A DNA stretch of 64,000 nucleotides from Terriglobales bacterium (GTDB lineage: Bacteria > Acidobacteriota > Terriglobia > Terriglobales > Acidobacteriaceae), in contig DATMAB010000017.1 of the NCBI GenBank assembly GCA_035573675.1, forward strand, positions 62,001 to 126,000, read 5' to 3'. The notes beneath the pieces are model-generated. The model saw only the letters and a list, made by a program, of their open reading frames with translations. It was not told the origin of the DNA and searched no databases. This document shows, piece after piece, positions 10,750 to 61,981 of the stretch. The position numbers and the translations under genes were made by a program. The first letter of the stretch is position 1. Each line of letters begins with the position of its first letter.

Positions 10750-10826
10750 AGTGGTCAGTTCTCAGTTGTCAGTTCTCAGTTGTCAGTTCTCAGTTCTCAG
10801 TTCTCAGTTCTCAGTTCTCATTCCTC
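10750..10826 (-). repeat. Heptanucleotide array, about 12 units, inverted relative to the atp copies
   Basis: Read on the minus strand the units are CTGAGAA with interspersed CTGACAA and a terminal CTGACCA. It is the longest array of the family in the window and contains no CCGAGAA variant, unlike the four atp copies. Confidence 0.92.
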
Positions 10827-10836
10827 CTCCTTGGCC

Positions 10837-10912: not shown

Positions 10913-11159
10913 CCTTCTGGAGTTTCGATCGCTTCGTTTTCGGGGCCAGCATGATCTTCGGAGTTGTGCCTCCTGGAGCGAGGCTGGCGGGGGAGTTCAC
11001 GGACCACGGTTTCCCACCAGGGGCTGAAGTTGACCGGCTTGAGGTTGTATGAGGCGGTCTGAAGGATATAGGCGAGCAGGCCGGAAAGGACTTACCGGAC
11101 GGGCTCCGGGGAAGTCTTTGGGCCCAAAGGGGTTAAGGCCCCGGTCTTTGGGCACAAAG

Positions 11160-11221
11160 GAGTTATTACCTCCTGTCAATCACATCCTCAGTAATTATAG
11201 CAAACTAGGAGATGTTGTCAA
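11160..11221 (-). promoter_or_regulatory. Consensus sigma-70 promoter with TAACTCC leader motif, minus strand
   Basis: On the minus strand, TTGACA (11216-11221), a 16-nt spacer and TATAAT (11194-11199) form a perfect consensus promoter. Downstream, the transcript would carry GGAGGT and then TAACTCCTTTGTG (the complement of GAGTTA at 11160-11165), followed by a second copy TTAACCCCTTTGGG. The same order of motifs precedes the zinc-knuckle gene at 61492-61812. No convincing gene follows here; a GTG frame after the GGAGGT codes about 52 residues with no recognisable domain. Confidence 0.6.
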
Positions 11222-61817: not shown

Positions 61818-61834
61818 CCCCCTCCCCCCTCCCC
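61818..61834 (-). promoter_or_regulatory. G-tract immediately upstream of the zinc-knuckle start
   Basis: On the minus strand the runs are GGGG, GGGGGG and GGGGG separated by single A, ending 5 nt before the ATG. It may act as a strong purine-rich ribosome binding site or fold as a G-quadruplex; both are inference. Confidence 0.45.
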
Positions 61835-61952
61835 TCTGAATAGAATCAACGAGTTAGGGTGGGGAAGTCCCGGGTGATCCCCGGAAACAAAGGAGTTAGA
61901 GGTAAGTTCCCCGTAAATAAGGAGTTATATTCACAAAGTCAATACTGCACGT

Positions 61953-61981
61953 AGAATATATCAAATAGATGCAAATGTCAA
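61953..61981 (-). promoter_or_regulatory. Sigma-70 promoter of the zinc-knuckle gene
   Basis: Minus-strand TTGACA (61976-61981), 17-nt spacer, TATTCT (61953-61958). Downstream the leader carries TAACTCC (complement of 61922-61927), TAACTCCTTTGTTTCCGGGG (61882-61898) and TAACTCG (61851-61856), the motif series also found after the promoter at 11194-11221. Confidence 0.65.

Follow-up and report, generated by a model that had tools for sequence, protein, structure and literature searches.

Two copies of a promoter and leader in the window

The window, that is, the whole stretch of 64,000 nucleotides that was analysed, carries two copies of a promoter followed by a repeated leader, one near 11 kb and the other near 61 kb (Table 1). 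Direct reading of the minus strand gives the promoters and the leader motifs at both sites as the original prediction had described them. In the 61-kb copy, the leader has three TAACTC heads, with steps of 29 and 42 nt, plus CCTTTGTTTCCGGGG; a TATATT at a spacer of 15 overlaps the -10 box TATTCT. Behind this leader lies a G tract, which had gone unmentioned, and it is followed by a small zinc-knuckle gene.

Table 1. Features of the two copies, numbered from the first letter of the window
Feature	Position	Strand	Remarks
-35 box TTGACA, 11-kb copy	11216..11221	(-)	direct reading
-10 box TATAAT, 11-kb copy	11194..11199	(-)	16-nt spacer; direct reading
Leader, 11-kb copy (R1 match, 55.1 bits)	11085..11166	(-)	heads at 11165, 11135, 11094
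-35 box TTGACA, 61-kb copy	61976..61981	(-)	direct reading
-10 box TATTCT, 61-kb copy	61953..61958	(-)	17-nt spacer; direct reading
Leader, 61-kb copy (R1 match, 72.4 bits)	61840..61928	(-)	heads at 61927, 61898, 61856
G tract GGGGAGGGGGGAGGGGG, 61-kb copy	61818..61834	(-)	ends 5 nt ahead of ATG
Zinc-knuckle gene, 106 aa	61492..61812	(-)	C-x9-C-x10-C-x2-H finger

The 11-kb copy reads, on the minus strand, TAACTCCTTTGTG from 11165 and TTAACCCCTTTGGG from 11136. A partial third unit, TAAGTCCTTTCC, absent from the earlier description, is present at 11094-11083, and the head-to-head steps are 30 and then 41 nt. On direct reading, unit 3 is incomplete and no G tract is found behind the leader. The copy thus looks decayed: its third unit lacks its end, and it has no G tract. 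It is a gene-less form, as most other copies are, and is truncated in addition. It is also possible that it gives a non-coding RNA. In the neighbourhood, short tandem TCAGTTCTCAG/TCAGTTGTCAG repeats occupy 10750-10830, directly 3' of a 3-hydroxyacyl-CoA dehydrogenase gene, and CAGT-like letters also occur at the equivalent place in a same-genus genome.

A dispersed family in the genome

Within the window, TAACYCCTTTG with at most one mismatch occurs 3 times against 0.54 expected; as 2 of 100 shuffles also reach 3, the case from the window alone is modest. In the whole genome, the exact pattern has 11 matches and its reversed control 1. DNA searches and this exact pattern led to 18 aligned copies, from which a sequence-only model, R1, was built. 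In the 3.16-Mb genome, R1 gave at least 46 matches at E≤1 and 37 at E≤1e-5, with 150 of 345 candidates scored. The 46 matches represent 40 sites, six of them being second matches at sites already matched. The genome-wide search that had been proposed for the leader motifs therefore finds them well beyond the two window sites. A second, partial array is present at three sites (L139, L148 and L150).

The unit head is TAASYCNTTTG. It occurs three times per copy at rigid steps, 29-30 nt and then about 41 nt. Among 34 anchored copies, 26 have a step of 29 nt from unit 1 to unit 2 and 7 a step of 30 nt; this list omits six copies of this genome with an uncertain unit 1. A TTGACA/TATAAT promoter of the sigma-70 type, with at most two mismatches to the consensus, precedes 33 of the 40 sites, as against 0.75 of 40 in shuffles. 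The -10 box stands 23-27 nt from unit 1 in 24 of the 34 sites having at most three promoter mismatches. The G tract is present in 35 of 37 copies, a count that leaves out two near-duplicates and the window's 11-kb copy, and in six copies it lies 1-20 nt 5' of a start codon. A copy starts near AWTTTTYYC-TTGACA, the columns 5' of TTGACA being strongly conserved for only about 9 nt, and ends with the G tract. The median identity between copies is 55%; the promoter, the spacing and the unit heads are nevertheless kept. The copies fall into four sequence classes, with gene-bearing copies in all four and gene-less ones in three.

No zinc-knuckle gene follows the leader at 30 of the 40 sites. Counted from the promoter survey, a promoter with at most two mismatches is found at 24 of these 30 sites and at 9 of the 10 gene-bearing ones, so the absence of the gene is the common state. 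The original prediction had taken the 11-kb copy to be orphaned or decayed because no matching gene remains there. This is partly right: the copy does look decayed, on the evidence of unit 3 and the G tract, but a missing gene is the usual condition of a copy. With gene neighbours called by a simple custom gene caller, 15 of the 30 gene-less copies have a next gene that points the same way as they do, and the other 15 have a convergent one. Gene-less copies, therefore, do not behave as leaders of particular genes, whereas the 10 gene-bearing copies lie consistently upstream of their gene and in its direction.

The zinc-knuckle partner protein

A BLAST-level search with the protein of the 61-kb copy returned 11 rows, which represent 10 loci in the window's genome. 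Each of the 10 is directly preceded by a copy in the same orientation, that at C10:175629 being a weak match (E 0.008). For a given gene, a start in the 300 nt downstream of any of the 40 copies, in the same orientation, has a chance probability of about 0.2%. The statement that the 61-kb copy drives its zinc-knuckle gene is thus supported as far as position goes. Two rows come in with a larger profile: a fragment at C10:178366, before which no copy is listed, and a remote relative at C15:13347, before which none was seen, giving 10 of 12 at that depth. The partial zinc-knuckle genes at C10:175883 and C10:178363 (L303) are some 2.5 kb apart and overlap in content.

Among 19 genomes of the family, element and protein occur together in 10, the element only in 1, the protein only in 0 and neither in 8 (Fisher p 1.2e-4). 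Further, 60 regions upstream of zinc-knuckle genes were chosen by hand from 21 other genomes, three of them clipped by contig ends; rows from the window genome, the weak ones of G041 and others that were partial or weak were left out. A model match at E≤0.01 is present in 29 of the 60 (R1 26, with a second model, R2, adding 3), always on the gene strand. A strict unit head was found on the forward strand in 18 of the 60 and on the reverse strand in 1, with 1 of 52 in the control. Neither a G tract nor a strict head was found in 15 of the 60, though 4 of those have a model match, which leaves 11 of the 60 without any of the three signals. Several model-negative regions, among the part inspected by eye, keep the last unit and the G tract before the gene. 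The G tract alone is a weak upstream marker, since C runs are common on the opposite strand (42 of 60 forward and 31 of 60 reverse; 11 and 8 of 52 in the control).

In the protein itself, the C, C, C and H are invariant across 49 aligned members. No Pfam or NCBIfam entry reaches its cut-off. The ligand spacing is that of the WRC zinc finger (PF08879), but of six proteins tested, one matches this family below threshold (E 0.0015, 18.7 bits against a cut-off of 28.6) and two others more weakly still, and the finger is here joined to a helical half. In the predicted structure of one member, a relative, a helical hairpin comes after the zinc finger (pLDDT 83.8, pTM 0.55). Fold searches gave nothing at E≤0.001, the best solved structure being at E 2.5. 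The best PADLOC match of the zinc-knuckle protein is a CARF profile (E 0.0072), and neither family nor fold searches matched it to a ToxN-like endoribonuclease. By eye, more similar zinc-knuckle proteins follow leaders of the same class; simple linkage predicts likewise.

Distribution among relatives

A two-unit pattern was found in 44 stretches of named genomes, 43 of them named as Acidobacteriota: Edaphobacter, Granulicella, Acidobacteriaceae or Acidobacteria MAGs and one Korobacter-labelled MAG. The other, in a 'Bacteroidetes'-named MAG (L122), was judged a chance hit and excluded from later work. At E≤0.01, R1 finds a match in 11 of 31 relatives. All 11 are among the 19 that belong to the window's family, and none of the 12 from the order's other family has one. 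Across 297 genomes of the phylum, with at most 14 candidates scored per genome, R2 at E≤1e-5 matches 16, all in the window's family, and the protein profile 23, 22 of them in that family. Both are found in 15 genomes, the R2 match only in 1 and the protein only in 8. A viral origin was also considered; the pattern scan gave two contigs with one shared sequence, without unit 3 or a G tract, and this was judged chance. At five loci (L089, L093, L102, L116 and L121), the Edaphobacter/Granulicella model matches both strands, it seems because the third unit repeats an earlier one in inverted form.

Boundaries and turnover of the cassette

The extent of the shared element was examined by local matches in 18 pairs of similar copies. 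The match begins 35-110 nt 5' of unit 1 in 12 of the 18, covers the leader only in 4 and the promoter region only in one (L136/L154). In 10 of the 18 pairs it ends close to where the G tract does, at about +107 to +128; in 3 it goes on to +144 to +152, and in 4 to roughly where the zinc-knuckle gene stops (+406 to +462). Between the gene-bearing L131 and the gene-less L138, similarity stops at +110, which is the end of the G tract. L131, L133 and L134 have unrelated flanks, and the long form common to them stops about where the zinc-knuckle gene ends; thus, no transposase travels with it. The promoter and leader are shared by copies whose surroundings are unrelated, in agreement with the earlier suggestion that they travel as a cassette. 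The L132 (C24) and L142 (C18) copies share a stretch, at 81% identity, that reaches about 580 nt 5' of unit 1, as if a longer segment had been duplicated.

For turnover, 16 right flanks were searched in one same-genus genome and 15 were located. The copy is present at 2 of these sites, a different, diverged copy stands at 1, a 3' remnant is found at 2 and no copy at 8, and the left flank is unaligned at the remaining 2. Sites are therefore filled in one species and empty in the other, with gain and loss indistinguishable per site. At the window's own 11-kb site, the same-genus genome carries a copy that points the other way. No terminal inverted repeats or mutual complementarity of the copy ends were seen by eye. 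No target-site duplication was seen by eye either, the flanks at the 8 empty sites being too diverged to place junctions. The copies are dispersed and variable in occupancy as MITEs are, but the terminal inverted repeats of these were not seen in them.

Structure of the leader

With 18 copies, RNAalifold gave no pairs and no family-wide structure, and single-copy folds are mostly ordinary. Rfam covariance models do not match at the elements, and none reaches E≤0.5 in 13 loci. A pairing test was then applied to 25 named Edaphobacter/Granulicella copies chosen from the 43 Acidobacteriota loci. Within-copy pairing exceeds between-copy pairing for the 5' hairpin (0 of 500 permutations) and likewise for unit 2 with unit 3 (0 of 500), while the other 10 region pairs are not significant. 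This 5' hairpin resembles an intrinsic terminator and is perhaps unconnected with the leader. Among 34 copies of the window's genome (the six with an uncertain unit 1 again omitted), the only pairings to stand out in 12 uncorrected tests are those of unit 2 with itself (3 of 500) and of unit 1 with itself (20 of 500). A local 5' hairpin is better than in shuffles (p≤0.05) in 13 of 34. The support for structure is lineage-specific, and the evidence on RNA versus DNA is mixed. Conservation is found in the promoter, in the unit heads and the distances between them, and in the G tract.

Two other ideas about the units were considered. The head as an anti-Shine-Dalgarno mimic (CUCCUUU, compared with the 16S end) was set aside because GUCC and GCUC heads are, by eye, frequent. 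DNA binding at whole helical turns is unsupported, as a step of 29 nt does not amount to complete turns.

Proposed function and alternatives

With the family, its rigid spacing, its promoter, its gene linkage and the differences in occupancy between species demonstrated at the level of sequence, the copies may be viewed as dispersed promoter-leader cassettes of variable copy number, in which the nucleic-acid-binding protein of the long form would control the leader. We give this reading about an even chance. The short form (~180 bp) would consist of a sigma-70 promoter, three spaced TAASYCNTTTG units and the terminal G tract. The long form (~500 bp) would run on into the small zinc-knuckle gene, with the G tract at the position of a ribosome-binding site. 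Every copy would be transcribed from about 20 nt 5' of unit 1. The zinc-knuckle protein would bind the repeated units, as RNA or, less likely, as DNA, and so control its own leader. The gene-less copies would then be its targets or decoys, spreading with or alongside the long form.

The zinc-knuckle protein probably recognises the leader units, and a cassette that encodes a protein recognising its own heads is the most economical account. Such recognition would explain why the zinc-knuckle gene stands behind the leader, why the more similar proteins go with leaders of one class and why copies lacking the gene have persisted in three of the four classes.

The main rival is mobility without regulation, which is possible though somewhat doubtful. 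On this view, the promoter and leader of a small, interspersed mobile repeat would serve mobility only, with the zinc-knuckle protein as a helper or cargo. The dispersal into unrelated surroundings, the variable occupancy between same-genus species, the oppositely oriented copy that the same-genus genome has at the window's site and the random orientation of the genes next to gene-less copies would all be expected of it. Against it, the copies have diverged and yet keep their promoter, spacing and heads, and neither terminal inverted repeats nor target duplications nor a transposase travelling with them were seen. A search with one query protein likewise found no relative in the plasmid, phage and viral collections. 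A selfish pair of RNA and protein, whose complex would regulate the long form and also drive the spread of RNA-only copies free of any transposase, is considered unlikely.

A cis-acting leader, attenuator- or riboswitch-like, that controls whichever gene stands behind it is quite improbable. Most copies are promoter-proximal, the G tract precedes a start codon closely in six of them and the Edaphobacter/Granulicella copies have their excess of within-copy pairing in the 5' hairpin and units 2/3. But a convergent gene faces half of the gene-less copies (15 of 30), no structure is conserved family-wide, and the genes behind other copies, viewed by eye and without systematic annotation, have no common theme. 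Type III toxin-antitoxin systems have the order promoter, short repeat RNA, small protein gene. A pair of this kind, in which the repeat RNA neutralises the protein encoded behind it, matches in order and would make copies with RNA only harmless, but it is very improbable, given a modelled zinc finger with a helical hairpin whose best solved-structure match is at E 2.5, a best PADLOC match to a CARF profile, and units that are heads in a variable context and not near-identical repeats.

Relation to known elements

Correia elements are small, promoter-bearing intergenic repeats. CsrA/CsrB is a system of an RNA-binding protein with decoy RNAs. A cassette with short motifs repeated in several RNAs and a small binding protein would act like the latter, but its motif and putative binding protein differ, and the protein gene lies behind the RNA. 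Correia elements and the enterobacterial RU/ERIC repeats are, like the cassette, short, dispersed and intergenic, with a non-coding short form, and vary between relatives. The cassette differs from them in having three rigidly spaced heads and a fixed protein partner in a quarter of copies, with no terminal inverted repeats or target duplication seen.

In Acidobacteria, REP elements are described as palindromes of 20-40 bp, and tyrosine transposase genes flanked by inverted repeats are described as well (Di Nocera 2013, PMC3733652). These REP/TIR elements are dispersed in the same phylum, whereas the cassette is of about 180 bp and without a transposase. Acido-1 RNA (RF01686) is reported as a candidate non-coding RNA of Acidobacteria (Weinberg 2010, PMC2864571); at E≤0.5, neither it nor any other Rfam family matches in the 13 loci. 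The family and its protein are described by neither Rfam nor Pfam. No description of the family was found among the literature matches listed, which come from open-licence papers, so that its absence there is weak evidence.

If the reading as protein-controlled cassettes is right, an abundant soil-bacterial lineage would carry up to dozens of putatively transcribed cassettes per genome together with a dedicated protein. As each copy would be a ready-made intergenic promoter, the family would shape both expression and genome change. The hypothesis is testable, since Edaphobacter and Granulicella strains with the family are named. One Edaphobacter copy has a cobalamin riboswitch (L104:7474-7665) about 6.5 kb away in the same 8-kb stretch.
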